Shown here piece by piece: positions 4,535 to 29,312 of a stretch of 64,000 bases of DNA; within the stretch, counting starts at the first letter, position 1, and every line of letters begins with the position of its first letter. Origin of the DNA: Streptomyces dangxiongensis (GTDB lineage Bacteria > Actinomycetota > Actinomycetes > Streptomycetales > Streptomycetaceae); NCBI RefSeq assembly GCF_003675325.1, contig NZ_CP033073.1, positions 186,001 through 250,000 on the forward strand, in the 5' to 3' direction. Below the pieces are notes generated by a model, which was not told the DNA's origin, made no database searches, and worked only from the letters and a program-made list of their open reading frames with translations. The position numbers were made by a program, and so were the translations under genes.

Positions 4535-5659
4535 TCAGATCGCGTACGGCCAGACGGTGAGCATGTAGGCGCCGTACCAGCAGCCGAACAGCGCGCCGCC
4601 GGTCACGGCGATCGCGGCCGTGGTGGTGCGTGCCCGGGCCAGTGCACGGGCGAGAGGGATGAGGAAGAGCACGGCGGGGATCATGAGGCGCAGCTTGGAG
4701 TGGTAGAAGCTGGTCTGCCCGAGCGTCAGGACCAGGATGCCGGAGCCGTAGACCAGCAGGGGTGGCCAGGTGTCCCGGCGCCAGGTGACGGCCGTGGCGT
4801 CGACGAGGGCCAGCAGGAGGACCGCGGTGCTGACGGGCACCCATCCGTCACCGTGCGCCAGCGTCTCGCCGAGGAAGCGCACGAAGGACCTGCCGCTGTC
4901 CCAACGGGTGCCCCACCCGGCCTGCTCGATGCTGAACCAGGCATCCGGCCGCCCGGCCCGGCGACCCACCCACCAGAGGTAGCCGGGCGTGCCCGCGCAG
5001 GCGAGAGCGACCGCCACGAGGGGGCGCCAGGCGGGTCTGCGGGTCCTCGCCAAGGACAGGGCGACGGCGACGGCGAGAGCCGCCACCACCGCCACGCCGG
5101 CCGGCCGCGTCAGGCCGGCCAGCATGGCCGAGACGCCCGCGGTGAGCCACGCCCGCCGATGGACGGCCAGCAGGGTGCCGGCGGACAGGGCGAGGAACAG
5201 TGACTCGCTGTAGGCCATGACGAAGACGAGCGCCATGGGTTGTGCGGCGGCGAGCAGTACGACCGCGATGAGGGCCGTACGCCGTCCGTGGAGGCGGGTC
5301 AGCAGCAGGTCGACGGTGATCAGCGCGGCGGCGAAGGCCAGGTTGGCGGTGACGATCGCGGCGTTGCCGTAGTCGAGGCGGGTCACGGTGTGGACGGCGC
5401 GGATCAGTAAGGGGAACAGCGGGAAGAACGCGAGATTGTTACCGGTGAGCAAGCCCGTGGACGAGTAGGTGAAACCGTCGGGATAGCCATGTGCGGCGAT
5501 CTGTGTGTACAGCCGGCCGTCCCAGGCGAGCAGGCGGTCGCGGAGGCCGGGCCCGTCCGGCGGGTTCATGACAGCCAGGACGACGAGGTGCAGGAGCGTG
5601 GCCGCGCCGTAGACGGTGAGCGCCGGCCATATCTCGCGCACGGACCGAGGACGACGCAC
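4535..5659 (-). CDS. PIG-V-like membrane mannosyltransferase
   Basis: About 374 residues, polytopic, with roughly ten hydrophobic segments. After the first membrane span comes LLAWDGRLYTQIAAHGYP, the conserved luminal Asp-containing loop of GT-C mannosyltransferases (PIG-V/Mannosyl_trans2). NNLAFFPLFPLLIR and YSESLFLALS are also typical. These enzymes move mannose from polyprenyl-phosphate-mannose onto an acceptor outside the membrane. The GTG at 5659 is preferred because AAGGAG lies nine bases upstream; the frame stays open to ATG 5809. It is convergent with the glutaredoxin-like gene. The acceptor is unknown. Confidence 0.75.
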   Translation of the reverse strand: MRRPRSVREIWPALTVYGAATLLHLVVLAVMNPPDGPGLRDRLLAWDGRLYTQIAAHGYPDGFTYSSTGLLTGNNLAFFPLFPLLIRAVHTVTRLDYGNAAIVTANLAFAAALITVDLLLTRLHGRRTALIAVVLLAAAQPMALVFVMAYSESLFLALSAGTLLAVHRRAWLTAGVSAMLAGLTRPAGVAVVAALAVAVALSLARTRRPAWRPLVAVALACAGTPGYLWWVGRRAGRPDAWFSIEQAGWGTRWDSGRSFVRFLGETLAHGDGWVPVSTAVLLLALVDATAVTWRRDTWPPLLVYGSGILVLTLGQTSFYHSKLRLMIPAVLFLIPLARALARARTTTAAIAVTGGALFGCWYGAYMLTVWPYAI

Positions 5660-5956
5660 ACCGACGCGCTCCTTCTGCCGCGGCTCGTCGAACCACTGCG
5701 CCGCGCTCCGGAACGAGCGACGTCTCACCTCACTTCTCACCGCCTCGGGCCGAGGGACGGGCGTGGTCCGATATTGCGCCTGATCTGCGCCTGCGGCGAC
5801 TTCGATCACCGGCCCGGTGGTCCGGTCGGGGCGGCGGGCGAGGCGTCGGGCCTCATCGGTCGTGCCGGCTCAGCGGGTGTCCGGCCGGTCTGGAGTTGGC
5901 GTCCGACCGCGGCGGTACGACCCTGGAAGCATGAACCTCGCCCGAAAGGCGGCCCG

Positions 5957-6160
5957 ATGATGAGCTGGCTGGGGCAGTTGAACCCTCAGGTGGCGCACGT
6001 GATCGCGGCTTTCGTGGGCATCGGCCTGATGTGCCTCTACGCGCTGCTGGTGGTGCTGGTCCGCAAGCTCCAGGGGAGGCCCGTCAGCGGACTGCCACCG
6101 AGAGACGACCAGCGCGTCGTGGCTGGGTCCACCCGTCCCCCCAATTCGGCCGGTGAGTGA
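5957..6160 (+). CDS. Small single-span membrane protein, unknown function
   Basis: 67 residues starting MMSWLGQLNPQVAHVIAAF with one membrane span (about residues 14-36), then a basic cytoplasmic stretch (VRKLQGRPVSG) and a flexible tail. A GAAAGGCGG ribosome site precedes ATG 5957. I do not recognise the family. It stands alone between divergent and unrelated neighbours. The existence of the gene is supported by start, composition and membrane topology only. Confidence 0.55.
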   Translation: MMSWLGQLNPQVAHVIAAFVGIGLMCLYALLVVLVRKLQGRPVSGLPPRDDQRVVAGSTRPPNSAGE

Positions 6161-6261
6161 TCACCACTGACGGCACCCAGTGCCGGTCAGCGGTGGCGCA
6201 CGCCGTACCCCCGCGAAGTAATCGGGTGCCCCGGCAGACGGGACGCGTTATCTTCACTGTC

Positions 6262-6330
6262 ATGAACGTCACAGGCCGAAGCATCACCGCGACCGCGCGA
6301 GCGACCAGCTCGCCGGTTGCCGCCGTCTGA
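6262..6330 (+). CDS. Possible 22-residue leader peptide before the AlaRS-like gene
   Basis: ATG at 6262 begins a 22-codon frame (MNVTGRSITATARATSSPVAAV) ending TGA at 6330. A TATCTT -10-like box at 6249-6254 lies eight bases upstream, consistent with a leaderless start. Five of the 22 codons are alanine, and the frame is followed by a stable hairpin and then an alanyl-tRNA-synthetase-like gene. That would suit translational attenuation by alanyl-tRNA supply. Alanine-rich short frames are common in GC-rich DNA, so this is a suggestion only. Confidence 0.25.
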   Translation: MNVTGRSITATARATSSPVAAV

Positions 6331-6344
6331 CGTACTTCCCCGTT

Positions 6345-6375
6345 CCACCGGCGACCGGACACGGTCTGCCGGTGG
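6345..6375 (+). promoter_or_regulatory. Hairpin between leader frame and AlaRS-like gene
   Basis: CCACCGGC at 6345-6352 pairs perfectly with GCCGGTGG at 6368-6375, and inner GACC/GGTC extends the stem to about 12 bp around a six-base loop. No run of T follows. It could act as an attenuator or 5'-UTR structure, or be incidental to high GC. Confidence 0.35.
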
Positions 6376-6463
6376 TTCCTCGGCGTTCTCCGCCCCGGTT
6401 CCGACGCCCGTGCGGACGTGTTGTCCGGTGCCTCCCCCGCTGCACACGCGAAGGAGCCACCCC

Positions 6464-7630
6464 ATGAACACCGACCAGATCGTACGCACGTTCCTCGAGT
6501 ACTTCGAGGACCGCGGCCACCGCCGGATCACCGGTTCGACTCTGCTGCCTCCGCCGGGAGACTCCGTGCTGTTCACCACCTCGGGCATGCACCCGCTCAC
6601 CCCCTACCTGGAGGGGCGCCCGCATCCCCTCGGCAGGAGGCTGACCAACGTACAGCGGTGTCTGCGCACCACAGACCTCGACGAGGTCGGCGACCGGACC
6701 CATCTGACCGTCTTCGAGATGCTCGGAACCTGGTCCCTCGGGGACTACGGAGGCCCGTCGAGCCTCGACTGGGGCTACGGTCTGCTCACCGAGGGCCTCG
6801 GAATCGATCCGGGTCTGCTGCATGTCACGGTCTTCGGTGGCGACGACCTGACCGGGCCGGACACCGCCTCCCTGGAGGTGTGGCAGGGACGCGGGGTGCC
6901 GGTGGAACTCACCGTCGAGGACAACTGGTGGTCCAACGGACCGACCGGCCCGTGCGGCCCCGACTCGGAGATCTTCCTGTGGACCGGCGACACCCCGCCG
7001 GAGTCGACACCCACAGGTGACGAACGCTGGGTCGAGGTATGGAACCACGTGATGATGCGCTACCGACGGCTCGCCGACGGTTCACTCGTGCCACTCCCCC
7101 AGCACAACGTCGACACCGGACTCGGCGTGGAACGACTGGCCTCGCTCTTGCAGGGCCGGACGTCGGTGTTCGAGTGCGACGTCTTCGACCCCTGGCGTCG
7201 CCTCCTGCCGGCCCTGTGGCAGCTCGACGAAGTGTCGCTGCGGTTGGTCTGTGACCACGTGCGCTCAGCCATTGTGGTGATCGGCGACGGGGTCCGCCCG
7301 GCCAGCACCGGCCGCGGCTACGTGCTGCGCCGCCTGCTGCGGCGGGTGCTCACCGTGCTGCGGCGGGACGATCCGTCGCGCGGCCTGGGAGATCTGCCGG
7401 ACGAGCTGGTGCGGCACACCCTGGACCGCTTCCGCCAGGACGAGGATCCGGACGTCGTGCGCCGGGTGCTGCTGGACGAGGAGCACCGTTTCGGCCGGCT
7501 CCTGGAACGTGGCCGGCAGGTACTGGCCCGACCGCGGTTCCGGGGCCCGCTGAGCGAGGAGGACCTCCACCACCTCCACGACACCTACGGCCTGCCGCGT
7601 GACCTCGTCCTGAACCTTCGGCCGCAGTGA
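6464..7630 (+). CDS. Stand-alone alanyl-tRNA synthetase catalytic module
   Basis: 388 residues, against about 880 for normal AlaRS. It keeps the whole class II aminoacylation core: the QRCLRTTDLDEVG region, motif 2 VFEMLGTWSLGDY, GPCGPDSEIF, WNHVMMRYRR and motif 3 NVDTGLGVERL. It also keeps the tRNA-recognition helices up to the LHDTYGLPRDL segment, then stops exactly where the editing domain would begin. The editing HxxxH zinc site and the C-Ala domain are absent. AAGGAG lies seven bases before ATG 6464. It may charge tRNA for a dedicated pathway or form alanyl-adenylate, but it cannot be a proofreading housekeeping enzyme. Its role is unknown. Confidence 0.88.
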   Translation: MNTDQIVRTFLEYFEDRGHRRITGSTLLPPPGDSVLFTTSGMHPLTPYLEGRPHPLGRRLTNVQRCLRTTDLDEVGDRTHLTVFEMLGTWSLGDYGGPSSLDWGYGLLTEGLGIDPGLLHVTVFGGDDLTGPDTASLEVWQGRGVPVELTVEDNWWSNGPTGPCGPDSEIFLWTGDTPPESTPTGDERWVEVWNHVMMRYRRLADGSLVPLPQHNVDTGLGVERLASLLQGRTSVFECDVFDPWRRLLPALWQLDEVSLRLVCDHVRSAIVVIGDGVRPASTGRGYVLRRLLRRVLTVLRRDDPSRGLGDLPDELVRHTLDRFRQDEDPDVVRRVLLDEEHRFGRLLERGRQVLARPRFRGPLSEEDLHHLHDTYGLPRDLVLNLRPQ

Positions 7631-7902
7631 CGGCCCGGCCCCGGCCTCGTCGTCGTCGCCTGAGCCGTCGGCTCCGGGGCATGCAGTGAGCCGACCGGGT
7701 CGGCGTCGTACCCGACGGCCTCGACGCCGCCGGCCGGCCGCGGGGTGACGGCCGGCCGGGGTGACACTCGCGCAGCGTGACGCGCGCCGGCGGCCGTGCG
7801 TGGCGACGGTGTTCCCCCCAGAGACGAGGAGGTTCCCGGAGACGATGAGTTTTCCCGGACCGGAGAGTCCCTTCACCGTCATCGCCATCGAAGGAGGAAC
7901 TC

Positions 7903-15293: not shown

Positions 15294-16190
15294 ATGCAGG
15301 TGGCGGAGCACGACGCGGCCTCCGAGGTGCCGCAGCGGCTGGGCGGCTTCCTGGAACGGCGCCGCGAGCAGATCGCCCAGCGGTGGGCGGACGCCACCCT
15401 GTTCCGTACCGTCTTCATCGTCTCCCGGGGCGAGGCGGTCGAGGCGTGCGAGGCTGTGGTCGACGCCCTGGCCGAGGTGGCCCGGACCGGACGGCTGGAG
15501 GACATCGAGGCCACCGGCTTCGCCGCGGTGCGCGAGCAGCTCGGCCGGATGTCCGCCTCCCGGGCCCGGGCCGGGTCCAGCCCGTCGCAGATCGCGGGTG
15601 AGGTCGCCGGCCTGCGCGAGCCGGTGATCGCCTTGCTGGACGCCGAGTTCGCGGACCCCGGCGACGAGCAGGCGCACGCGTGCAGGCTCGCGCTGACGGT
15701 CCTGATGGGCACGCTCCGCCTGGTGGTCATGGAGACGGCGGTGAGCGCGGGCGAGGAACTGATCGCCCGGCAGCGCCATCAACTGCTGGAGGTGGCCACT
15801 CCGGTCATCCGGCTGTGGGACGGCGTCGTCGCCGTACCGCTGATCGGCACCCTGGACAGCGCCCGCAGTCAGACCGTGATGGAGAGCCTGCTGGAGGCGA
15901 TCGTGGACCAGCGGGCCCGGTTCGCCATCCTCGACATCACCGGGGTGCCGACCGTCGACTCGCTCGTGGCCCAGCACCTGATGAAGACCGTCGCCGCGGC
16001 CCGTCTGATGGGCGCGGAGTGCATCGTCTCGGGTATACGTCCCGCCATCGCGCAGACCATCGTCCAGCTCGGCATCGACCTCGGGTCGATCATCACGCGG
16101 GCCGGCCTCGCCGACGCGCTGGCGTACGCGCTGGGCCGGCAGGGCATCGTCGTCTCTCCGGCCCCGGCCGCGGGAGCGATCCCGCGGTGA
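15294..16190 (+). CDS. rsbR: RsbR-type stressosome protein with STAS domain
   Basis: 298 residues. The N-terminal half (about 1-160) is an all-helical RsbR-type sensory domain (GFLERRREQIAQRWADATLF). The C-terminal half is a STAS domain, beginning VIRLWDGVVAVPLIGTLD, with the phosphorylation-site region ILDITGVPTVDSLVAQHLMK and ECIVSGIRPAIAQTIVQLGI. RsbR with RsbS forms the stressosome that holds the RsbT kinase until stress. It is the first gene of an operon in which every following gene overlaps or nearly overlaps; its stop overlaps the rsbS GTG. Confidence 0.93.
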   Translation: MQVAEHDAASEVPQRLGGFLERRREQIAQRWADATLFRTVFIVSRGEAVEACEAVVDALAEVARTGRLEDIEATGFAAVREQLGRMSASRARAGSSPSQIAGEVAGLREPVIALLDAEFADPGDEQAHACRLALTVLMGTLRLVVMETAVSAGEELIARQRHQLLEVATPVIRLWDGVVAVPLIGTLDSARSQTVMESLLEAIVDQRARFAILDITGVPTVDSLVAQHLMKTVAAARLMGAECIVSGIRPAIAQTIVQLGIDLGSIITRAGLADALAYALGRQGIVVSPAPAAGAIPR

Positions 16191-17061: not shown

Positions 17062-17429
17062 GCGGGGTCCGGCACATTCCGGTCCGGGGCGGCACCAGGG
17101 TGCGGGACGTCCGCGTCGCCCCGGAGCACGCCTGCGCCCGCACCGGGCGGGACGCGCGTTCCAGGGCGGCCGCGGTGCCGGTCGCCACCGGGCCGGCGTC
17201 CGGCCTCGTCGAGCACGCGAGCGGCGGTCACCTCGTCATCCGCACGGCCGGCCGGTCCGGCATCCTCGCGGAGAACGCCCCGTGCGTGGGGATCGCCCCG
17301 CCCGACCGTGGCATGGACGCGCCGGTGGCACTACGCGTCCCGCGGGACGCCGGCAGCGCCGTGCACCCATACGACGACGCCAGCAGTGTGGCCGTACTGA
17401 CCCCTGACCCACCGGACGGACGTCCATGA
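17058..17429 (+). CDS. Degenerate second RsbT-like ATPase domain
   Basis: 123 residues in the position where related operons encode a second GHKL ATPase. The start MSGVRHIPVRGGTRVRDVRV and the middle LVEHASGGHLVI still match RsbT-like proteins, but the N-box Glu and Asn are gone (VATGPASGLVEHA where ATELASNLVKHA is expected). The G1 region reads PPDRGMDAPVA without its glycines and no G2 box is seen. ATP binding therefore looks lost. The frame is nevertheless intact and keeps 4-base overlaps with both neighbours, so it may act as a non-enzymatic partner or be in early decay. Confidence 0.65.
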   Translation: MSGVRHIPVRGGTRVRDVRVAPEHACARTGRDARSRAAAVPVATGPASGLVEHASGGHLVIRTAGRSGILAENAPCVGIAPPDRGMDAPVALRVPRDAGSAVHPYDDASSVAVLTPDPPDGRP

Positions 17430-19288
17430 CCGCAACCCCCGATGTCTGGAAGATCGCGTCCGTCGGTGATGCGGCCCGGGCTCGCGCAGCCGTCGACCGC
17501 GTCGCCACGGCCGGCGGCGCGCCGGCGCTGGACCGCGCCCGCTTGCTGACGTCCCTGACGGCACGGCTGCGCCGCTGCCTCGACCAGGGCGGCACGTGGG
17601 AACTCCGGCTCCACGCCCGGCCGACCGCGGCCGCCGGGGAAGGCCGGCTCGAGGTCTCCCTGCGGCCGGCCGACTCACCGGTGCCGGACCCGGACGTCGA
17701 ATCCGCCCTCGCCTGCGCCCTGCCGCACCGGCCCGCCCCGGACGGCCCGGCCGTCGACAGGACGCTGCCCGAGGCCCTGCTGCGCGCCGACGAGAACACC
17801 GCGGCCGTACTGGAGGTCCTGGACGAACAGGAACGCCTCGTCCGGCTGCACCTGGAGGAGTTGCACCAGACCAACCAGGGCGTCCTGGCGCTGCACTCCG
17901 ACCTGGAGGCCGCGGTACTGGCCCAGCGCGAACTCCTCGAAGCCGAGCGGACCGCGCGCGCCGAGGCGGAGCGGGCCCGGCGGTTGCTGACGTTCCTCGG
18001 GGACGCCAGCGCCGCCATCACGGCGTCGCTCAGCCATACGGCCATCCTCCGGCGCCTGTCCGGCATGCTGGTCCCGGAGTACGCGGAACACCTCGACGTG
18101 TGGCTCTTCGACGAGGAGGACGCGGAGCAGCAGGAGTACGGAGCGGACGCGCAGCACCTTCGGGAGCGGCCGGCCGTCGCGGTGGCCGCCGCCCGCACCG
18201 GCCGTCCCCAGCACGCCGCCGCCCACGCCGGGAAGCTGCCCGGCACCGACGACCTCCCGTCCTCCGCGCCGCCCCCGCGGCGCCCGGTACTGGCCATCCC
18301 CCTGGTGGCGCACCGTCAACTGGGCGTCCTCACCCTCACCGCGCCCGGGCCGCGCTTCGACGCGGACACCACCGTGATGCTGGTCGAACTCGCCCGCCGG
18401 GTCGGTGTCGCCCTGGACAACGCCCGCCGCTACGAGCAGTACCGCGACACCGCCGAGACCCTGCAGCACGCCCAGCTCACCGATCTGCCCACCGTGCCCG
18501 GTCTGCTCCTGGCCGCGCGTTACCTCCCCGCCACCCGGGGCCTGAACATCGGCGGCGACTGGTACGACGCCTTCCTCCAGCCCGACGGCAGTCTGCTGGC
18601 CGTCATCGGCGACGTCACCGGGCACGGTCTGCACGCCGCCGTGGTCATGGGCCAGCTGCGTACCGCGCTGCGCGCGTACGCCGTCGAGAACGACAGCCCG
18701 GGCGACATCCTCACGCACCTGCACCGCATGCTGCGGCACCTGCAACCGGAGCTGTACGCCACCGCCATGATCGCCCGTTTCCGGCCGGGCGAGCCGGGGG
18801 TGGTCTGGGCTTCGGCCGGTCACCCGCCCGCCGTGGTGCGCGACGCCGACGGCACCGTACGCGTGCTGAACGCGAAGCCCGGTGTGATGCTGGGCATCCC
18901 CGTGCCCTACGCGTACGCGGACCAACGGGCGGACCTGCCCGCCGGTTCGTCCCTGGTGCTGTACACCGACGGTCTGGTCGAGCGCCGGGCGCAGGGCATC
19001 GACCCGGGCATCGAGCGTCTGGGCCGGGCACTGGGCACGCTGACCACCGCGGAACTGGGACAGCACCTGGACGCCGCGGCCGACGCCCTGCTCAAGCCCC
19101 TGCTGCACGACTCCGAACGCGACGACGACGTCTGCGTGCTGATGTGCCACACCATGACGCCGGCCGGAGGGGAACCGCGGTGGGAGGGGGACGGGGGCCC
19201 GTCTCCCACCCGGCGTCCTGGAGGTGGGTCTCCTCGGGGTAGCGTGGAGGACACGAGGCGAGAGGGTGGATGCCGTGAAAGCTTCTGA
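17426..19288 (+). CDS. RsbU-like PP2C (SpoIIE) phosphatase with GAF domain
   Basis: 620 residues. An N-terminal region of about 110 residues resembles a worn ATPase domain. Then come a coiled coil (about 125-185), a GAF-like sensor (about 190-335) and a SpoIIE/PP2C domain (about 350-585). Metal-binding motifs are present: NIGGDWYDAF, VIGDVTGHGLHAAVVMGQL and the C-terminal DDDVCVLMC. It would dephosphorylate an anti-sigma antagonist after RsbT activation. Its ATG overlaps the preceding stop. The last 40 residues are low complexity and carry the promoter-like TAGCGT (19240-19245) of the next gene. Confidence 0.9.
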   Translation: MTATPDVWKIASVGDAARARAAVDRVATAGGAPALDRARLLTSLTARLRRCLDQGGTWELRLHARPTAAAGEGRLEVSLRPADSPVPDPDVESALACALPHRPAPDGPAVDRTLPEALLRADENTAAVLEVLDEQERLVRLHLEELHQTNQGVLALHSDLEAAVLAQRELLEAERTARAEAERARRLLTFLGDASAAITASLSHTAILRRLSGMLVPEYAEHLDVWLFDEEDAEQQEYGADAQHLRERPAVAVAAARTGRPQHAAAHAGKLPGTDDLPSSAPPPRRPVLAIPLVAHRQLGVLTLTAPGPRFDADTTVMLVELARRVGVALDNARRYEQYRDTAETLQHAQLTDLPTVPGLLLAARYLPATRGLNIGGDWYDAFLQPDGSLLAVIGDVTGHGLHAAVVMGQLRTALRAYAVENDSPGDILTHLHRMLRHLQPELYATAMIARFRPGEPGVVWASAGHPPAVVRDADGTVRVLNAKPGVMLGIPVPYAYADQRADLPAGSSLVLYTDGLVERRAQGIDPGIERLGRALGTLTTAELGQHLDAAADALLKPLLHDSERDDDVCVLMCHTMTPAGGEPRWEGDGGPSPTRRPGGGSPRGSVEDTRREGGCRESF

Positions 19289-20453
19289 ACCGCTCCCGTC
19301 GGCGGAGGCGCTTCTGCGCGCGGCCGCGCCCCACGCGCTGGTCGCCACCTCCCGCCGCATCCTCGCCGAGGGTGTCGGAGCGCAGGAGGTCACCCTCCTT
19401 CTCGCCGACTACGGCCTGACGGTTCTGCAGCCGGTGTCCCACCTGCCGCACACCGGTACCCCGGTATCGGCCCACGACGGCCCCGCGGGCAGCGCCTTCC
19501 TCACCCAGAACCCGGTGATCGAGGTCCTCCAGGAGCCGGCCGGCCATCTGGTGCATCTGCCCATCACGGTGCGCGGCGACCGTCTGGGCGTGTTGTCCGT
19601 ACGCCTGCCGGCGGGGGCCGCGGGCCCGGACACGGTGCTCCAGCTCGGTCGCTTCGCCACGGCGCTGGGCCATGAGGTCACCACCGCCGGCCGCGACACG
19701 GACCTCTACCTCCAGGCCCGCCGCACCCGCCGTCTCACCCTCGCCGCGGAGATGCAGTGGCAGCTTCTGCCCGGCCGCGGCTGTGCCCGCGACGAGTACG
19801 TCATCGGCGCCCACCTGGAACCCGCCTACACGATCGGCGGGGACAACTTCGACTGGTCCACCGACGCCGACCACCTCGTCCTCACCGTCACCGACGGCAT
19901 GGGGCAGGGTATCGACGCCTCCTTGCTCACCAGCCTCACCGTGGGCGCCCTGCGCAACGCCCGCCGCGCCGGCATCGGCCTGGCCGACCAGGCGTCCCTC
20001 GCCGACCAGGCGGTCTACGCCCAGTACGGCGGCAAGATGTACGCCTCCACCCTGCTGCTGAGGTTCGACCTGACCACCGGCGCGGCGCGCGCGGTGGACG
20101 CGGGCTCGCCCCAGCTGTTCCGCGAGCGCGACGGCCACACCGAGCGGATCGAGCTGGAGGCCCAGATGCCGCTGGGGATGTTCGAGGAGACGGTCTACGA
20201 GGAGCAGGCCTTCCAGGTCGAGCCCGGCGACCGGCTGCTCGTGGTCAGCAGCGGTGTGCACAGCACCCGTTCCGCGGGCGGTGACCTCTTCGGCGAACAG
20301 GCCCTGCGTCTGATCCTCGGCGCCACCCGCTCCGCACCGCCGCACGAGACGGCCCGGGCTGTCGTCGCCGGACTGATCGAGCACCACGGGAGCAGCGAGC
20401 TGATGTCGGACGCCGCCGTGGTCTGTCTCGACTGGCACGGCCCCCCGAGCTGA
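19275..20453 (+). CDS. RsbX-like PP2C phosphatase
   Basis: About 392 residues from GTG 19275, preceded by GAGAGGG. A GAF-like N-terminus (about 15-140) with PVSHLPHTGTPVSAHDGPAG is followed by a PP2C domain starting at AAEMQWQLLPGRGC. The metal motifs are variant but present: TIGGDNFDWS and TVTDGMGQGIDASLL, ending SDAAVVCLDW. In partner-switching modules the last phosphatase resets RsbR/RsbS. A TAGCGT -10-like box inside the previous gene suggests it can also be transcribed separately. Confidence 0.88.
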   Translation: MKASEPLPSAEALLRAAAPHALVATSRRILAEGVGAQEVTLLLADYGLTVLQPVSHLPHTGTPVSAHDGPAGSAFLTQNPVIEVLQEPAGHLVHLPITVRGDRLGVLSVRLPAGAAGPDTVLQLGRFATALGHEVTTAGRDTDLYLQARRTRRLTLAAEMQWQLLPGRGCARDEYVIGAHLEPAYTIGGDNFDWSTDADHLVLTVTDGMGQGIDASLLTSLTVGALRNARRAGIGLADQASLADQAVYAQYGGKMYASTLLLRFDLTTGAARAVDAGSPQLFRERDGHTERIELEAQMPLGMFEETVYEEQAFQVEPGDRLLVVSSGVHSTRSAGGDLFGEQALRLILGATRSAPPHETARAVVAGLIEHHGSSELMSDAAVVCLDWHGPPS

Positions 20454-22942: not shown

Positions 22943-24226
22943 TTACACCGGACTCAGTGGATGGGCCGCCGTGGCGGACCGGGGCGGCCAGGCCTGGGGG
23001 GAGAGGATGCCGAGCACGTAGGCGCGGGCGACCAGGGCCGGGCGGGTGGCGGCGCCCAGCAGGTCGCGCAGCCGGCTCAGGTGGTAGTCGACCGTCTGCC
23101 GTGACAGGTGCAGCGTTCCCGCGATGTCCGCGTTGCTGTGCCCGGCGGCCAGCAGGGCGAGGATGCGTACCTGGCTGGCCGTCAGGGGCGGTTGCGCCTC
23201 GTGGCGCGGGCCGACGTGGGTGATGACGGCCCACACACCGGGCACGCGGTCAGCGGCGTGGCACACGGCGCTCAGATGGACCCGTACGCGGCGCTGCCGG
23301 CTGTCCCCGTCGACGAGCACCGCCGTGGTCCGGGCGCTTCTGCGCCGGCCGCCGACGAGGTCGTGCCAGATCCGGTGCACAGCGGTGCGTTCGGGTGTCC
23401 TCGCCAGCAGGGCGTCGGCCGACAGCCCGATCAGGTCGGAGAGGCGGACGCGCAGGAGTTCGGCGACCGCGGTGCCGGCCTCCCCCACCAGTCCGTCGGT
23501 GGACAGGCGGACGCAGAGGAGGCCGCTGTGGTCGCGCAGGGTCCTCAGCTCCTCCTCGGCCCGGCGTCGCTGGTCCAGCGCCCGGGTGTGGTCGGTGACG
23601 TCGACGTAGATGCCGGCCACGCAGCGGCGCCCGCTCCAGCGGACGGGGAAGCGGTACCCCGCGGCCTGCCCGGAGGTTCCGTCGGGGCGCCGGTAGGTGA
23701 GGGTGTGCCGTACGGGCCTGCCCTCGGCCAGGACGGCCCGGTCCAGAGCGAGGAACCGGGTGACGTCGCCCGGTTCGTCGACGTCGGCGAGGTGGCGGCC
23801 GATCACGGCGTCGCGCGTGGTGCCGTACAGGTGGGCGTAGGCGTGGTTGGCCCACAGGTAGCGGCCGGTGACGTCGCGCACGAAGGCCGCGGCCGGGGTG
23901 AGGTCGGCGAACGCGGCGTACGGGTTGTCCTCCGGCCGGCCGCTCACCTCGACCGCCACCCCCCTGCTGCCGTCGCGGTCGGCGCCGTCGTGGCGAGCCG
24001 GCCAGTTGACGTGGAAGGTACGGCCCTCGAAGCACGCCCGGTAGGGCGCGTCGGGGGTGCCGGACGGCCCGTCGCGGTCGGCGCGGAGGGCTTCGAGGAA
24101 GCGGCGTGCGGTCCGGTCGTCGTCGAACGCGCCGCCCCCGCTGTCGACCACTTCCAGCCCGCCGTCGGCTTCCCACCAGGACACCGGAAGGGGGGCGAGC
24201 AGCGTCTTGAAATCGGCCTCGTCCAC
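22943..24226 (-). CDS. PAS-domain LuxR-family regulator
   Basis: 427 residues. A PAS domain (about 105-215) holds FVRDVTGRYLWANHAYAHLY and AGIYVDVTDHTRALDQ, followed by a second PAS-like stretch (about 230-340). The C-terminus carries a LuxR/GerE helix-turn-helix: LTASQVRILALLAAGHSNAD, then SRQTVDYHLSRLRDLLG (about 355-405). It reads away from the ATP-grasp/dikinase/MFS cassette and shares a 345-bp control region with it, so it is the natural candidate to control that cassette. The ligand of the PAS domains is unknown. Confidence 0.85.
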   Translation of the reverse strand: MDEADFKTLLAPLPVSWWEADGGLEVVDSGGGAFDDDRTARRFLEALRADRDGPSGTPDAPYRACFEGRTFHVNWPARHDGADRDGSRGVAVEVSGRPEDNPYAAFADLTPAAAFVRDVTGRYLWANHAYAHLYGTTRDAVIGRHLADVDEPGDVTRFLALDRAVLAEGRPVRHTLTYRRPDGTSGQAAGYRFPVRWSGRRCVAGIYVDVTDHTRALDQRRRAEEELRTLRDHSGLLCVRLSTDGLVGEAGTAVAELLRVRLSDLIGLSADALLARTPERTAVHRIWHDLVGGRRRSARTTAVLVDGDSRQRRVRVHLSAVCHAADRVPGVWAVITHVGPRHEAQPPLTASQVRILALLAAGHSNADIAGTLHLSRQTVDYHLSRLRDLLGAATRPALVARAYVLGILSPQAWPPRSATAAHPLSPV

Positions 24227-24484
24227 GACCCAACTCCTTCAATGGTCCACCACATTACGTTGAGTGACACAGCATGCGTATCCCGTGGCGGAGCAGACAT
24301 GCGGAGCGGGCGGATGCCGTGCGCGTGCGCACCGACCGGGCACTAGCGCATCACGCGGTCTCCACATGTCGCCAACTGGTCGCGGTAGTCCGGCATTTGC
24401 CTGAACGGAGCGCCTAGCAGCGTGTGTCGGGGGGCAGTTGGGGCTGGTTCGCTTGAAGGAGACGGCGGGTCGACTGGCTTCACA

Positions 24485-24504
24485 CCGGCGGAAGTGTCCG
24501 CCGG
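24485..24504. promoter_or_regulatory. Perfect inverted repeat in the cassette leader
   Basis: CCGGCGGA (24485-24492) and TCCGCCGG (24497-24504) flank a four-base loop, 68 bases before the ATP-grasp GTG. It could be an operator for the PAS-LuxR regulator or an mRNA hairpin. The remaining 345-bp intergenic region has an AT-rich stretch (24240-24285) suited to divergent promoters. Confidence 0.35.
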
Positions 24505-24571
24505 CCGCCGTTTCCCGTCCGGGCGCGGCCCGCGTCCGGGCCTTCGGGACGACCAAGGGAGTTGGGTATCG

Positions 24572-25945
24572 GTGAGCAAGGTGCTGTACGTGCATGCCAA
24601 GGGCGGCCCCCCGGTGGGACATGCCCTCGCGCGGGTGGCCGCGAGGTCCGCGGTGCACCTGCTGGCACTCAGCGAACTGCCCGCCACGGTGGCGGAACGG
24701 GCCGCCGGCCTGTGCGACTCGGTGGTCACGCACGCCGCCTCTGAGGGGCGCGACCTGGTGGACGCCATCACGGCCCGGGCCCGGGAGGTGGGCGCGGAGG
24801 CGGTCGTCACCTTCTCCGAGTACGCGGTGGTGGCGGTCGCCGAGGCGTCCCGGCGGTCAGGACTGCGCGGTGCCGGGCCCGCCGCCGCGCTCGCCCGGGA
24901 CAAGCGGCTGATGCGCGCGGCGTGGGAGCGCCGGGGAATACCACAGCCCCGGTTCCGCGCGGTCACGACCGCGGCCGAACTGGAGCGCGCCGCGGCGGAG
25001 TTGTCGTTCCCGCTGCTGTTGAAGGCCGCGTGGAGCGCCGGATCGACCGCCCACCAGATCATCGAGACGCCCGGGGACGTGCAGAACGCCTGGCAGCGGT
25101 CGCGCGCGGTGATGGCGGAGTCGGCGCTGCTCGGGTTAGCGGAGCTGCATGTCGCCGGGGCCGGCGAGGACTTCATCGTCGAGGAGATCGTCAGCGGATG
25201 CGCCGAGGAGTGGTTCGACGGTTCCGGCTGGGGTGACTACGTCAGCGTGGAGGGCGTGGTCGTCGGCGGTGTGTTCCGCCCGGTCTGCGTGAGCGGCCGG
25301 ATGCCGACGGTGGCGCCGTTCACCGAACGCGCCGGTATCACCCCGGCGGCGCTCGGGAGCGAGGCCCAGGACAGGATCGTGGAACTGGCCCGGCGCGCCG
25401 TGGACGCCCTGGGCCTGGAGGACTGCGGCACGCACACGGAGATCAAGCTGGGCTCGGACGGCCGTATGTGGGTGATCGAGACGGCGGCGCGGTTCGGCGG
25501 CGCGATGACGGTGCCGCAGATCGAGCAGGTCTTCGGACTGGACCTGGCCGGCATGTTCACCGATCACCTGCTCGGCGGCTCACCCGCCTGGCCGGACCGG
25601 GCGTTGGCGCCTCAGGACGCCGTCGGCGCGGCCGGGTCCCTGGTGGTGCTGGCCGTGAACGGTGACGGTTCGCCCTGGACCCGTCGCCATCTGTGGGACT
25701 CCGCGACGGTCGTCCGTTCGGCTCCCCTCGGGGCGGGCAGCACGCTGTCCGTCGTGGCCGAGAGCGCCCTGCCCGACGGTGCGCCCGTGCCGGTCTACGA
25801 CCCTGCCGCCGGCGCCAACACCATGGCGGCCGTGTGCCTGCTGTCGGCCGACCGGCCGCAGACCGTCGTCCGCGACTTCGCCGCCGTGGTGGACGCCCTG
25901 CCGCGGATCCTGCCCACGGATGTCACCGAGGAGGCCCGCGCATGA
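24572..25945 (+). CDS. ATP-grasp ligase
   Basis: About 457 residues with an ATP-grasp fold: a Rossmann-like N-domain (VLYVHAKGGPPVGHALARVA), a preATP-grasp stretch AVVTFSEYAVVAVAEASRRS, LARDKRLMRAAWERRGIPQP, the nucleotide-binding FPLLLKAAWSAGSTAH and DFIVEEIVSG. The metal-binding end is HTEIKLGSDGRMWVIETAAR followed by FGGAMTVPQIEQVFGLDL. It resembles carboxylate-amine ligases of the BacD/L-amino-acid-ligase kind, which activate a carboxylate as acyl phosphate. GTG 24572 is chosen; AAGGGAG lies 14 bases upstream. Its TGA overlaps the next ATG. Confidence 0.87.
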   Translation: MSKVLYVHAKGGPPVGHALARVAARSAVHLLALSELPATVAERAAGLCDSVVTHAASEGRDLVDAITARAREVGAEAVVTFSEYAVVAVAEASRRSGLRGAGPAAALARDKRLMRAAWERRGIPQPRFRAVTTAAELERAAAELSFPLLLKAAWSAGSTAHQIIETPGDVQNAWQRSRAVMAESALLGLAELHVAGAGEDFIVEEIVSGCAEEWFDGSGWGDYVSVEGVVVGGVFRPVCVSGRMPTVAPFTERAGITPAALGSEAQDRIVELARRAVDALGLEDCGTHTEIKLGSDGRMWVIETAARFGGAMTVPQIEQVFGLDLAGMFTDHLLGGSPAWPDRALAPQDAVGAAGSLVVLAVNGDGSPWTRRHLWDSATVVRSAPLGAGSTLSVVAESALPDGAPVPVYDPAAGANTMAAVCLLSADRPQTVVRDFAAVVDALPRILPTDVTEEARA

Positions 25946-27954
25946 CGCACGCACCGGCCGGGGCGGTCGTGCCCGACGCCACCGGCGACCGTACCGTCGT
26001 CGGCGCGAACCTGTCGCTGCCGCTGTTCCGCTCGCTGTCCGGGGTACTGGCCGGACACCCTTACCTCAAGGTCGTCGTGGATCGTGCCGAGAAGACCTGG
26101 CATCTGCTCGACACCCGGGTGCATCCCTTCCACGTCGACTACATCGCGACCCGCGTCCTCGGCATGACGCTGGACGAACTCGACGCGGACCTCGACGCGT
26201 TCAACGCGTCGGTGTACATGGACCCCGGACGCCGGTTCCTCCTCGGGGTGGTGTCCCTGCACACCGAGGAGGAGGCCGACGGCTCCGAGCGGCCCTTCCT
26301 CGTGCTGGAGACGACCGAGGCGGACACCATGCCGGGGCCCTTGCTCGAGGAGTTCTACCACTACGTGCGCGGACGGGTGGACGGCCGTCTGCCGCTGCTG
26401 CTCAAACCCGCCAACCACGGTCAGGAGCACGAGCTGGCCGCGATCGGCGAGGCGCGTGTGCCGCGCGTCCTCAGCCACGAGCTGTTCGGCAACCGCACCC
26501 GCACCTGCCTCAACCCGGGCGAGGCCGAGGGGCGGCTGCGCTACTTCCGCACCACGGCGGAGTACGAGAGCGCGGCCGGGGAGCTGGGCTGGTCGGACAT
26601 CGTGGCGATGCCCCGGCTGCCCGACGACGTGCCCCGGACCGCCGGCCTCGTCAACACGGTCCCCACGACACCGCTTTCGCACACCAACGTCCTCGCGGCG
26701 GGCTGGGGGATCCCGAACGCGATCGTCCGCGACCTGGACGCCCTCGTCCGGCAGGACGGCCTCGACGGCGCGTGGGTGCGCTACCGAGTGCGTGAGGACG
26801 CCGTCACCCTGGAGCGGCTGCCCCACGCACCGGCTCTGGAACGGCCCGCCTGGCACCAGCAGCGCATCCGCATCGAGACACCGCTGCTGGAGGAGGCCCC
26901 GATCCTGGAGCTGCACCGGCTGCGGTGCGCCGACCGGGACAGTTACGGCACCAAGGCGGCCAACCTCGGGGAGCTGCACCACGTCCTGGACAGCCGCACG
27001 GCGGACCTGACGGCGTTCTACGCGCGCCCGCGTCCGCCGCGGCCCGATCTGCTCGGCCACCTCGCCGCCCGGCTGGGCGAGTCGGGAGCGTCACCTCGGC
27101 GGCTGCGCGCCGCGGCGGCCGAACGCGTGGCGCGGACGGTCCGCGCCCCGCGGGGCGTGGCGTTGCCGTTCCGGCTGCACCATCTGTTCCTCACCTCCTC
27201 CCCCGCCCTCCAACAGGGCATCGGCAAGCTGAAGATGGCGCTCGAACTCGACGCCCTCGACGTGATCGACCCGCTGTCCCTGCACCTTCAGCACCTGACG
27301 TGCAGCACGCCGATGCCCGAGGAGGTGACGCGGGCGATCACCGCCTCCGTGGCGGCGCTCATGGCCGACGGACGCCGTCTGGTCGTGCGCTCCTCCTCCA
27401 ATGCCGAGGACCTGCCCGGCTTCTCGGCCGCCGGGATCTACGACTCGGTGACCACCGTGCGCGGCACGGACCAGCTCATGGACGCCGTACGACAGGTGTG
27501 GGCGTCACTGTTGTCGCCGCGCAGCGTGCGCCTGCGGCACCAGGTCGGCATCCCCCTGGACGACACCTACATGGGCGTGATCGTCCAGGAGTACGTGCCC
27601 GCCGGTCTGGGGGGCGTGCTCGTGACCTGCGATCCCACCCGCCCCGAGGACTTCCGCAACGTGTACCTGAACTGCACGCCCGGCTCGCCCGAGCAGGTGG
27701 TCGACGGCACGGTGCTACCGCAGCAGTACCTCTACAACACCGTGGAGGGCGGCGGGCGTACGGTCGGCATCGGCTCGTCGGGACAGGACCTCCCGGCGGC
27801 GACACGCGCCTCGCTGGCCGAACTCGCCCTCGTCGGACGTCTGCTGCAGTCCCACTTCAGCGAGGACGATCCCGACGGCGCCCTGGACATCGAGTGGCTC
27901 ATGACCGCGGAGGGGGCCTTCCACCTGGTCCAGGTCCGCCCCTACGCCCGGTGA
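25942..27954 (+). CDS. PEP-synthase/PPDK-like dikinase with unusual domain order
   Basis: 670 residues. The N-terminal 200 (GANLSLPLFRSLSGVLAGHP) are not recognised. Then comes a phosphohistidine swivel-like motif, TTPLSHTNVLAAGWGIPNAI, with the candidate His at about residue 247. It is followed by the PEP/pyruvate-binding ATP-grasp domain: YGTKAANLGELH (about 335-346), RLVVRSSSNAEDLPGFSAAG (about 478-497), VIVQEYVP and the terminal HLVQVRPYAR. Normal PEP synthase has the ATP domain first and the His domain second, and a C-terminal PEP barrel that is absent here. It is translationally coupled to the ligase (ATGA overlap). Confidence 0.83.
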   Translation: MTHAPAGAVVPDATGDRTVVGANLSLPLFRSLSGVLAGHPYLKVVVDRAEKTWHLLDTRVHPFHVDYIATRVLGMTLDELDADLDAFNASVYMDPGRRFLLGVVSLHTEEEADGSERPFLVLETTEADTMPGPLLEEFYHYVRGRVDGRLPLLLKPANHGQEHELAAIGEARVPRVLSHELFGNRTRTCLNPGEAEGRLRYFRTTAEYESAAGELGWSDIVAMPRLPDDVPRTAGLVNTVPTTPLSHTNVLAAGWGIPNAIVRDLDALVRQDGLDGAWVRYRVREDAVTLERLPHAPALERPAWHQQRIRIETPLLEEAPILELHRLRCADRDSYGTKAANLGELHHVLDSRTADLTAFYARPRPPRPDLLGHLAARLGESGASPRRLRAAAAERVARTVRAPRGVALPFRLHHLFLTSSPALQQGIGKLKMALELDALDVIDPLSLHLQHLTCSTPMPEEVTRAITASVAALMADGRRLVVRSSSNAEDLPGFSAAGIYDSVTTVRGTDQLMDAVRQVWASLLSPRSVRLRHQVGIPLDDTYMGVIVQEYVPAGLGGVLVTCDPTRPEDFRNVYLNCTPGSPEQVVDGTVLPQQYLYNTVEGGGRTVGIGSSGQDLPAATRASLAELALVGRLLQSHFSEDDPDGALDIEWLMTAEGAFHLVQVRPYAR

Positions 27955-29312
27955 GGCGCCGTATGTCCCTCCTGCGGTCCTCGCCCCCCGTACCGGCGCC
28001 GCCCCCGGCCGCGCGCCACGTCATCCGCCTCAACAACGGGTTCCAGTTGCTGTTCAACCTGCTGTGGTGGATGCCCGTGTTCTACGCCTACCAGCGTGAC
28101 GCGGGTCTGTCCGACGGGCAGATCTTCGGCATCCAGAGCATCTACTACATCGCCTTCTGCCTGTTCGAGATACCGACCGGAGCCATCGCCGACCGCATCG
28201 GCGCCCGCAACTGCCTGCGCGCGGGAGCGGTGGTCATGACGGCGGCGAACCTGGCGCCGGTGCTGGCCCCGACGTACACCGGTTTCCTCGCGCACTTCCT
28301 CGCCATCGCGGCCGGGCGTTCCCTGGCGTCGGGCGCGGCGAGCGCCTATCTGTACGACGGGCTGCGCGCCGAGCGGGCGGAGGCCCACTATCTCAAGGCG
28401 GAGGGCACGGCGCGCGCCCTCGGGCTCGCCGCCAAGGTCGTGTGCTGGCCGCTCGTCGGGCCGCTGATGACCCTGGCCCCGCAGACACCGTACGTACTCA
28501 GCGCGGCGTGCGCGGCCGGTTCCCTCGGCTGCGCCCTCGCCCTGCCGCGGCTCGCCACGGGCGGCACGGACACCCGCCGCCGTGACCCGGCGCGGCGCGG
28601 CGGCGGCGTCCTGCACGACACGGGCGCCGCCCTGCGCGCCCTGTGGTCGTCGCCGTGGCTGGCGCTGCTCATGGTCCAGGGCGTCGCCGTGTTCACGCTG
28701 TCGCGGATCTGCCAGGTCAACCTGTTCCAGCCGGTGCTGCTGGAGCACGGCATCAAGGAGAGCGCGCACGGCAGTGTGCTCGCGGCGATGACGGTCGCCG
28801 AGGCCGTGGCGTCGGCCCGTCCCCAGTGGCTGAGCCGCCGGCTGCCGCCCGCCGGCTGGGTGTCGCTGCTGAGCGTGGCCCTGGCCGCCGTTCTGGCGGG
28901 CACCGTAGTAGGCGGCCCGTGGACCGTGGTCGCGCTGCTGTGCGCGTTCGCCGCGATCACCGGGTTCGTCTATCCGGTGCAGCGCAAGCTCATCAACGAC
29001 GCCATCCCGGTGCACGCGCCGCGGGCCACGCTGCTGTCGGTGGAGAGCATCGTGGACCGCGGCGTGTGCGCGGCGGCCGCGGTGGCCGCGGGTGCCTGTC
29101 TGGCGGCGGGGCGACTGGACGCGCTGCTCTGGTACAGCGCCGCGATCACCGGCGTCGTGATGCCGGCGCTCCACCTGGCCCTGCGCCGGACCGGCCGGCG
29201 CGATACCCCGGCCGGGAAGGCCCGCGCCACGGCCGCTCCCCGCGCGGGCGCCCCGGCGCCGGACGAGCCCGTCTCCCTGCCCGTCGACGAGGGAGCGGCA
29301 CCGCGCGCCTGA
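27951..29312 (+). CDS. MFS transporter of the cassette
   Basis: About 453 residues with eleven to twelve hydrophobic segments. FEIPTGAIADRIGARNCLRA (about residues 75-95) is the MFS loop 2-3 motif. The sequence resembles the MFS subgroup with FCLFEIPTGAIADR often annotated as multidrug or product exporters. The C-terminal 50 residues are a disordered Ala/Pro tail. GTG 27951 overlaps the preceding stop; ATG 27963 is an alternative. Position at the end of the operon suggests export of, or resistance to, the product of the ligase and dikinase. Confidence 0.85.
   Translation: MRRRMSLLRSSPPVPAPPPAARHVIRLNNGFQLLFNLLWWMPVFYAYQRDAGLSDGQIFGIQSIYYIAFCLFEIPTGAIADRIGARNCLRAGAVVMTAANLAPVLAPTYTGFLAHFLAIAAGRSLASGAASAYLYDGLRAERAEAHYLKAEGTARALGLAAKVVCWPLVGPLMTLAPQTPYVLSAACAAGSLGCALALPRLATGGTDTRRRDPARRGGGVLHDTGAALRALWSSPWLALLMVQGVAVFTLSRICQVNLFQPVLLEHGIKESAHGSVLAAMTVAEAVASARPQWLSRRLPPAGWVSLLSVALAAVLAGTVVGGPWTVVALLCAFAAITGFVYPVQRKLINDAIPVHAPRATLLSVESIVDRGVCAAAAVAAGACLAAGRLDALLWYSAAITGVVMPALHLALRRTGRRDTPAGKARATAAPRAGAPAPDEPVSLPVDEGAAPRA

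Follow-up and report, generated by a model that had tools for sequence, protein, structure and literature searches.

A Streptomyces cassette of an ATP-grasp ligase, a dikinase and an MFS transporter as a possible minimal small-molecule pathway

The window, a stretch of 64,000 nucleotides from Streptomyces dangxiongensis, carries at 22943–29312 a cassette consisting of a PAS-LuxR regulator, a BacD-like ATP-grasp ligase, a PPDK-related dikinase and an MFS transporter (Table 1). The host is a soil bacterium, and the gene set is small and self-contained, with a regulator of its own. A sequence-only reading made earlier had the gene set, order and strands right, with Pfam domains in agreement, but the span it gave, 24572–29312, covers the three-gene part and omits both the regulator and a palindrome. 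It also gave two 4-base overlaps. That between ligase and dikinase is present (ATGA, 25942–25945), while the second exists only if the transporter starts at GTG 27951. The ATG at 27963 has a Shine-Dalgarno-like GGTGAGG six bases 5', which leaves an 8-base gap after the dikinase; the equivalent gaps in two annotated relatives are 2 and 59 bases. The transporter scores 54.9 bits against MFS_1 (cut-off 33.4). As had been noted, there are no other biosynthetic genes among the ten neighbouring frames scanned for families, which are two SpoIIE, MarR, PLD-like, DCC1-like, GH31, two sugar-type ABC transporter parts, RsbRD/STAS and one without a family.

Table 1. Features of the cassette and their positions in the window
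Feature	Position	Strand	Basis
PAS-LuxR (PAS_4 + GerE) regulator, divergent from cassette	22943..24226	-	Pfam
Operator-like palindrome TCCGGCATTTGCCTGA, family consensus TCAGGCAWWTGCCTGA	24389..24404	.	Search of window, genome and related loci
ATP-grasp carboxylate-amine ligase, BacD-like	24572..25945, GTG start	+	Pfam ATP-grasp_4, PDB 3wo1
Small-molecule dikinase (likely), 670 aa	25942..27954, ATG start	+	PPDK_N, AlphaFold2 model, conserved residues
Dikinase N-terminal domain, residues 1-186, proposed acceptor site	25942..26499	+	Conserved residues, model
His247 codon in TPLSHTN, proposed phosphohistidine	26680..26682	+	H in 81/81 sequences
MFS transporter	27963..29312, alternative start GTG 27951	+	MFS_1; relatives after dikinase

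The divergent regulator is a PAS-LuxR protein, as first described, with scores of 56 bits for PAS_4 (cut-off 23.1) and 41.1 for GerE (cut-off 23.5), and a divergent relative is present in 14 of the 16 Streptomyces loci. The palindrome has a single match in the window and none in 100 shuffles, and TCMGGCAWWTGCCTGA occurs once in the 8.16-Mb genome when exact matches, with no mismatches allowed, are sought. At up to two mismatches it is found in all 14 loci whose regulator is divergent and in neither of the two that lack one, a pattern that makes it a possible operator for the PAS-LuxR protein.

The ligase scores 35.8 bits against ATP-grasp_4 (cut-off 27), which places it among the ATP-grasp carboxylate-amine ligases, and it matches BacD (PDB 3wo1) over residues 60–345 (E 1.4e-49). 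The family and the BacD match both support the amide-building role proposed for it. While it is an ATP-grasp ligase like BacD, the alanine-anticapsin ligase of bacilysin, it falls far under the BacD equivalog cut-off (NCBIfam NF053745, 182.6 bits against 850). At a BacD position with Trp in the 3wnz sequence but Ala in 3wo1, which presumably sets substrate size, the window ligase has Ala and all relatives compared have Ala, Val or Leu. Ligases of at least 53% identity in the Streptomyces sample adjoin a dikinase, but three relatives of 44–48% identity are sited in other, biosynthetic-looking clusters. Three ligase paralogues adjoin an Asn synthase, methyltransferases, a PLP enzyme or a TauD dioxygenase.

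The domain order of the dikinase appears to be an N-terminal acceptor domain, a swivel domain with His247, and the PPDK_N ATP domain (AlphaFold2 model pLDDT 88.4). PPDK_N (135.3 bits, cut-off 27; E 3.8e-39; residues 399–668 of 670) is the only Pfam domain found, and ends two residues before the C terminus. The swivel domain is predicted from a motif and from secondary structure, without a family match, and its conserved His247 would be the catalytic phosphohistidine. When the catalytic residues are equated by motif with those of rifampin phosphotransferase (RPH), Lys338 is present in 81 of 81 sequences, Arg483 in 80 of 81, and Glu651, Gln664 and Arg666 in 79 of 81, the remaining sequences having gaps. 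All five are thus unchanged wherever aligned; the proposed catalytic residues of this PPDK-type ATP domain are intact, as the phosphoryl transfer attributed to the protein would require. The N-terminal domain (residues 1–186, model pLDDT 90.1) has no match to PDB structures at E≤0.001, and K43, H64, N88, R97, E123, T124, E126, D128, M130, K155 and E162 are identical in 80–81 of the 81 sequences.

The original description of the dikinase as PEP-synthase-like is apt for the ATP domain but not for the remainder. PEP synthase and pyruvate phosphate dikinase likewise have PPDK_N and a swivel His, but also a C-terminal PEP/pyruvate-binding domain, whereas the window dikinase ends after PPDK_N. It is distinct from PEP synthase, and a primary-metabolism PEP synthase was rejected because Pfam finds the PEP-binding domain missing. 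Public records label these dikinases "PEP/pyruvate-binding domain-containing", and some phosphoenolpyruvate synthase, despite the absence of that part. In plant glucan, water dikinases the ATP domain also comes last, after the His domain; in the window dikinase Pfam finds only PPDK_N.

The best solved structure matches to the dikinase model (Foldseek) include HpeI (9goj) and, as the best of all, RPH, and the chemistry is likely that of a small-molecule dikinase. RPH from Listeria (PDB 5HV1/5FBS) is described as phosphorylating a small molecule by means of an ATP-grasp domain and a swivelling phosphohistidine (PMC4844700), a plan that the window dikinase shares. The order given for RPH, ATP domain, rifampin domain and then His (PMC4844700), differs from that seen here, where the His, at residue 247, is not C-terminal but precedes PPDK_N at 399–668 of 670, and the RPH equivalog (NCBIfam NF041857) gives 109.8 bits against a cut-off of 999, its best match covering residues 399–668 only. 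The phenol kinases HpeHI, CreHI and PpsAB have similar small-molecule dikinase chemistry, but each is made of two proteins instead of one, and the swivel motif reported for the HpeHI kind is T/SxxGGxxxH (PMC12167813), compared with TPLSHTN here.

The fact that the top solved matches are rifampin phosphotransferases, which inactivate rifampin, would suit a resistance function, in which the dikinase and transporter inactivate an antibiotic, whether foreign or self-made, and pump it out, and the ligase shares in the inactivation. Plasmid copies of the cassette exist, and a kinase with an exporter is a common layout for resistance. This appears improbable, given the distance from the RPH equivalog, the different domain order, the presence in some loci of a possible outside phosphatase, which would reverse the protection, and the three kinds of ligase found beside these genes, which are unexpected for inactivation.

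The pairing of a ligase with a PPDK-like protein does have the precedent that had been cited for it. In phaseolotoxin biosynthesis, as described in PMC11278893, PhtU is an L-amino acid ligase and PhtL, which is PPDK/PEPS-like, is postulated to form the N-P bond. The likeness is one of description, and the phaseolotoxin cluster has 23 genes for a sulfodiaminophosphinyl tripeptide (PMC11278893), a far larger set than the window cassette. PhtL and the matches to the prodigiosin ligases RedH and PigC (NCBIfam, 82.6 and 63.8 bits, within the ATP domain) would be consistent with the dikinase being an activating or condensing enzyme, or a former of P-N bonds, instead of an O-kinase. The chance of this is likewise small, as the RedH and PigC matches are confined to residues 451–598 and lie far under the cut-offs of 1350 and 1300, the cassette already has a separate ATP-grasp ligase, and phosphatase-type neighbours suggest that a phosphate is added and then removed.

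Of 121 Streptomyces genomes, 15 (this one included) carry ligase, dikinase and transporter together, as does a plasmid of one further strain, with unrelated flanks. That the three genes adjoin each other in these genomes means that the cassette is not due to chance, and the earlier proposal of a self-contained, separately regulated unit is supported. The co-occurrence of ligase and dikinase holds in the Streptomyces sample, where the dikinase was found only with the ligase (15/15 genomes), but not further out. Among the 80 of 280 relatives most similar to a Bdellovibrionota protein, and with neighbour genes chosen by a heuristic script instead of a gene finder, an MFS relative directly follows the dikinase in 77 loci from several phyla. 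The three without it lie at contig ends, L039 ending 321 bases past the dikinase stop, and L058 and L063 before any such stop. A ligase, of one of three ATP-grasp kinds, is beside the dikinase and transporter in 14 of the 80, which excludes L068 with its weak ligase-like match (3.9e-07) some 3–5 kb off; no adjoining ligase was found in the other 66, some of which are on short contigs. The ligase-dikinase pair is therefore not the basic unit, which is instead dikinase plus MFS, with the ligase an add-on. When genomes across phyla were searched with the window dikinase and at most three candidates per genome were scored, it was found in 3 of 396, all of the same genus, and a scan of genome contigs found dikinase relatives in many other phyla. 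The dikinase tree was built from sequences longer than 560 residues, and Fisher tests were run without correction for common descent.

With 66 of 80 loci lacking an adjoining ligase, the dikinase and transporter may act without a biosynthetic partner. In Bdellovibrionales, Elusimicrobia, Eremiobacterota and other groups, recognised biosynthetic genes are mostly missing from beside them. This would fit an uptake function, in which the transporter imports a small molecule, the dikinase traps it in the cell by phosphorylation, the ligase conjugates it further, and HAD-like or PAP2 proteins, where present, free the molecule outside; a scavenging role is described as fitting the related dikinase HpeHI (PMC12167813). 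In 26 of the 80 loci, all from Pseudonocardiales genera by title, there is a nearby gene family that is Edd in both members scanned (L065, L106), with Eda identified in L065, and in two Kutzneria loci a glucose/sorbosone dehydrogenase lies immediately upstream, neighbours that would suit a sugar acid. The Edd neighbourhood, however, is part of a wider chromosomal synteny, with fumarate reductase upstream and, in L065, recA-recX downstream, and an Entner-Doudoroff role was rejected as the general function since this neighbourhood is seen only in Pseudonocardiales and within that synteny. The three kinds of amino-acid-ligase-type genes beside the dikinase and transporter would be odd for plain uptake and suggest that a product is made and not only imported. 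Uptake appears rather unlikely, if less so than resistance.

A further partner, absent from the earlier reading, is a HAD-like protein, probably exported, whose gene is present in 9 of the 80 loci and 8 of the 16 Streptomyces loci, and in L107 it is fused to the transporter. PAP2 genes are found in 4 of the 80, distinct from those with HAD. Both partners would be outside-facing and of phosphatase type. In the HAD-like proteins DLGxT replaces the usual DxDxT, with loss of the second Asp, and the Thr/Ser of motif II varies, so that their phosphatase activity is doubtful.

The preferred reading, with a nearly even chance of being correct, is that the ligase makes an amide, the dikinase phosphorylates through a phosphohistidine, the transporter exports the product, and phosphatases outside may unmask it. 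Under the control of the PAS-LuxR regulator, which may bind the palindrome, the BacD-like ligase would form a dipeptide-like amide from an amine and a carboxylate, the latter probably an amino acid. The dikinase would transfer a phosphate from ATP to His247, yielding AMP and Pi, and the swivel domain would then bring it to the N-terminal domain, where the amide, or a precursor of it, would be phosphorylated on a hydroxyl or a nitrogen; a P-N bond is conceivable. The MFS protein would move the phosphorylated compound outward. In relatives the HAD-like or PAP2 protein may strip the phosphate outside, while in the window strain this would fall to a general phosphatase, or the phosphate would remain. 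The observed basis of this reading is the gene set, its conservation, the conserved residues and the conserved palindrome, from which the substrates, step order, regulator binding, export and unmasking are inferred. The best solved matches of the dikinase, being parts of enzymes that pass phosphate from ATP to His to a small molecule, support it; counting against it, no HAD partner is present in the window genome at E≤1e-6, nor in 29 of 49 dikinase-bearing genomes from the 80 loci searched at E≤1e-10, the other 20 having one.

A wider proposal, more doubtful than this pathway, is that the dikinase inside, its transporter and, on the outer side, an exported protein of HAD-like or PAP2 type form a phylum-spanning module that phosphorylates, exports and unmasks one small molecule. 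Amino-acid ligases would have joined it more than once, perhaps four times, producing minimal pathways to natural products, of which one would occur in roughly one in eight of the Streptomyces species sampled. No description of the cassette or module was found in full-text literature searches, whose reach lay mostly outside subscription literature. Were the model true, the small group of dikinases that act on antibiotics and phenols would gain a kinase family that has an acceptor domain of its own, and the three-gene pathway, with its candidate operator, would be small enough to be expressed whole. The linked HAD-like partner would offer a direct route towards the phosphorylated substrate.

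The cassette (listed in the table below) is conserved as a unit in Streptomyces. The dikinase is present in 15 of 121 Streptomyces genomes, including its own (E<=1e-60), with an MFS relative (E<=1e-50) adjoining it in the same 15. Seventeen genomes carry the ligase (E<=1e-40), among them all 15 with the dikinase; in 14 of these it lies directly 5' of the dikinase, and in genome G090 it sits after the MFS gene instead. The other ligase matches (genomes G068 and G077, and a second copy in G048) are distant, at 45-48% identity. All four genes are also present on two plasmid records, NBC_01471, judged by coordinates to be the same replicon as genome G023, and NBC_00080, a further strain, which with the window and 13 genome loci make a set of 16 Streptomyces loci. 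When a heuristic script is used to call neighbouring genes, the only families common to more than two of the 16 are the cassette's own (counting an antisense shadow of the dikinase) and a HAD-like family.

Features of the cassette, in window coordinates
Feature	Position	Strand	Remarks
PAS-LuxR regulator	22943-24226	-	divergent from the other three genes
Operator-like palindrome	24389-24404		window form TCCGGCATTTGCCTGA; sole match within the window; 0 in 100 shuffles
ATP-grasp ligase	24572-25945	+	
PPDK-related dikinase	25942-27954	+	
MFS transporter	end 29312	+	start GTG 27951 or ATG 27963

Of the 4-base overlaps described in the sequence-only reading, that between ligase and dikinase (ATGA) stands, while that between dikinase and MFS, which requires the GTG start, is uncertain, the ATG having the better ribosome-binding site by eye. 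Elsewhere in the window are two adjoining SpoIIE-type phosphatase genes (17426-20453), the first with GAF domains, with an RsbRD/STAS gene upstream (15294-16190).

The regulator gene is divergent in 14 of the 16 Streptomyces loci, and comparison of intergenic regions across these loci yields the palindrome TCAGGCAWWTGCCTGA. With up to 2 mismatches it is present in all 14, and absent from the two without a divergent regulator (L030 and L031) and from all 80 wider dikinase loci. Exact TCMGGCAWWTGCCTGA occurs once in the 8,157,885-base window genome. From this pattern the cassette is probably under its own switch, and the PAS-LuxR protein would bind the palindrome. A related regulator gene is retained, convergent and 3' of the MFS, in loci L108 and L110-L113.

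The sequence-only reading had ligase, dikinase and MFS as a self-contained unit with its own regulator, an observation borne out in substance and a reading that is half right: the unit holds in the 15 Streptomyces genomes, but most of the wider loci have no adjacent ligase. In a scan using one genome per species, 280 dikinase relatives were found and the best 80 kept, the ranking being by similarity to a protein of Bdellovibrionota, which makes the sample uneven; by title they are from Bdellovibrionales, Oligoflexia, Myxococcota, Elusimicrobia, Eremiobacterota, Pseudonocardiales genera, Nonomuraea, Streptomyces, and others. In 77 of these best 80 the gene after the dikinase encodes an MFS relative, and the other three loci lie at contig ends, whereas a ligase is adjacent in 14. 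The deeper unit is the dikinase and MFS. Eleven of the 14 ligases are BacD-like, and those of L061 (gene divergent), L062, and L067 belong to two further kinds, the L061 and L062 proteins being alike and L067 carrying the L-amino acid ligase domain LAL_C2. In the midpoint-rooted dikinase tree, the 27 bearers of BacD-like ligases (11 wider and 16 Streptomyces loci) make up a single 27-tip group (support 0.983), with L061, L062, and L067 apart, which fits acquisition of ligases several times, perhaps four, with losses as the alternative.

Residues 60-345 of the window ligase match BacD, the alanine-anticapsin ligase (E 1.4e-49), yet the match is far under the BacD equivalog cut-off. Three distant paralogues adjoin methyltransferase, Asn synthase, PLP enzyme, TauD, or MFS genes, and amide natural products are therefore a likely output of the family. 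A position that is Trp in the 3wnz sequence and Ala in 3wo1 is Ala in the window ligase and Ala, Val, or Leu in every relative listed, which is read as a larger pocket, given a role of this Trp in setting substrate size. Three ATP-grasp-like stretches with a PLP enzyme, an O-methyltransferase, and a TauD dioxygenase at L137:8054-17951 are read as an unassigned small amide pathway. One and the same set of Asn synthase, methyltransferase, ATP-grasp ligase, and MFS recurs in two Streptomyces genomes (L138:6671-12062 and L139:7702-13254), with no dikinase nearby.

Pfam identifies PPDK_N alone in the dikinase, at residues 399-668 of 670. The top solved Foldseek matches of its AlphaFold2 model (48 sequences, pLDDT 88.4) are rifampin phosphotransferase (RPH), HpeI, and PEP synthase, and the RPH ATP domain alone (5hv6) gives a TM-score of 0.77 on its own length. 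A swivel domain is recognised at residues 187-292 from the order of strands and helices and from the motif, TPLSHTN surrounding His247. Across 81 dikinases (the window and 80 wider loci), His247, Thr248, Asn249, and Lys338 are in all 81, Arg483 in 80, and Glu651, Gln664, and Arg666 in 79, the exceptions all being gaps. K338 and R483 are equated by motif with Lys22 and Arg117 of RPH (PMC4844700). The N-terminal 186 residues are equally strict (K43, H64, N88, R97, E123, T124, E126, D128, M130, K155, E162), a pattern that would suit a substrate site; a separate model of this domain (52 sequences, pLDDT 90.1) matches nothing in the PDB at E<=0.001, a second look giving a weak result. Since the ATP domain, last here, stands first in RPH, PEP synthase, and PPDK according to the same paper (PMC4844700), and the N-terminal domain lacks a PDB match, the dikinase has, as judged from sequence and model, a different domain order and a different acceptor domain. 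What is new lies in this dikinase family, in how its domains are ordered, and in its partners. A PEP/pyruvate-binding protein from a Mycobacterium branderi plasmid (L033:5803-8559, 918 aa as annotated) is outside this family because its ATP domain is first (by eye); a phosphotransferase-family gene is near it.

The HAD-like gene is a partner that the earlier reading overlooked. It is at 9 of the best 80 of 280 wider loci: 3' of the MFS in L038, L052, L055, L061, L068, and L091, overlapping the MFS stop in all save L091; after the ligase in L062; before the dikinase in L036; and in an Oligoflexia MAG (L107:9957-11717) joined to the C terminus of the MFS as a single open frame directly after the dikinase. 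The family is in 8 of the 16 Streptomyces loci, convergent and downstream of the MFS, and in 12 of the 121 genomes. Eleven of these 12 belong to the 15 that have the dikinase, the HAD-like gene being adjacent in 7 and elsewhere in the genome in 4; the twelfth, G058, lacks the dikinase (Fisher p 1.2e-11, shared ancestry ignored). Among 198 genomes from the phylum of G528, the dikinase (E<=1e-100) is in 2 and the HAD-like gene (E<=1e-10) is nearby in the same 2. Speaking against a partnership, it is absent at E<=1e-6 from the window genome, G023, G033, and G090, and among the 49 dikinase-bearing genomes searched at E<=1e-10, 20 have it and 29 do not. All nine unfused proteins examined (eight wider, plus Streptomyces locus L003) have a hydrophobic N-terminal stretch ahead of the motif, read as a signal peptide, and the L107 fusion has one shortly ahead of its HAD part. 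The first Asp, a Thr, a Lys, and the motif IV acid are retained; catalysis is uncertain, as Gly replaces the second Asp of phosphatases. Four other loci among the best 80 of 280 (L094, L095, L096, and L098, titled Bacteriovoracaceae, Bacteriovorax, Bdellovibrionales, and Nitrosovibrio) have a PAP2 gene in its place, overlapping or closely following the MFS stop, and the three uncut by a contig end have all three PAP2 motifs. PAP2 active sites face outward.

The most likely course, at slightly below an even chance, is that a compound is made, phosphorylated, and exported: the BacD-like ligase would form an amide, the dikinase, via His247, would phosphorylate this or a precursor, the MFS would move the phosphorylated compound, and outside phosphatases, where present, would strip the phosphate. 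That many dikinase-MFS pairs are without a ligase, and that some Pseudonocardiales pairs have a 6-phosphogluconate dehydratase (Edd) neighbourhood, argues instead for uptake and trapping of a small molecule by the pair, a rather unlikely course. The ligases argue for making and exporting. For the pairing of ligase and dikinase, the phaseolotoxin precedent proposed earlier is fair, PhtU being an L-amino acid ligase and PhtL a PPDK/PEPS-like protein postulated for N-P bond formation in a review (PMC11278893), although that 23-gene pathway is likened to the cassette by description, not by sequence.

In Pseudonocardiales, a gene family shared by L065 and 25 other loci lies upstream of the pair; its members in L065 and L106 are identified as 6-phosphogluconate dehydratase (Edd). 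In L065 the upstream stretch (5266-7754) also holds KDPG aldolase, with recA-recX downstream of the pair, and fumarate reductase is in the same region. In Kutzneria (L048 and L054), a glucose/sorbosone dehydrogenase gene is directly upstream of the pair.
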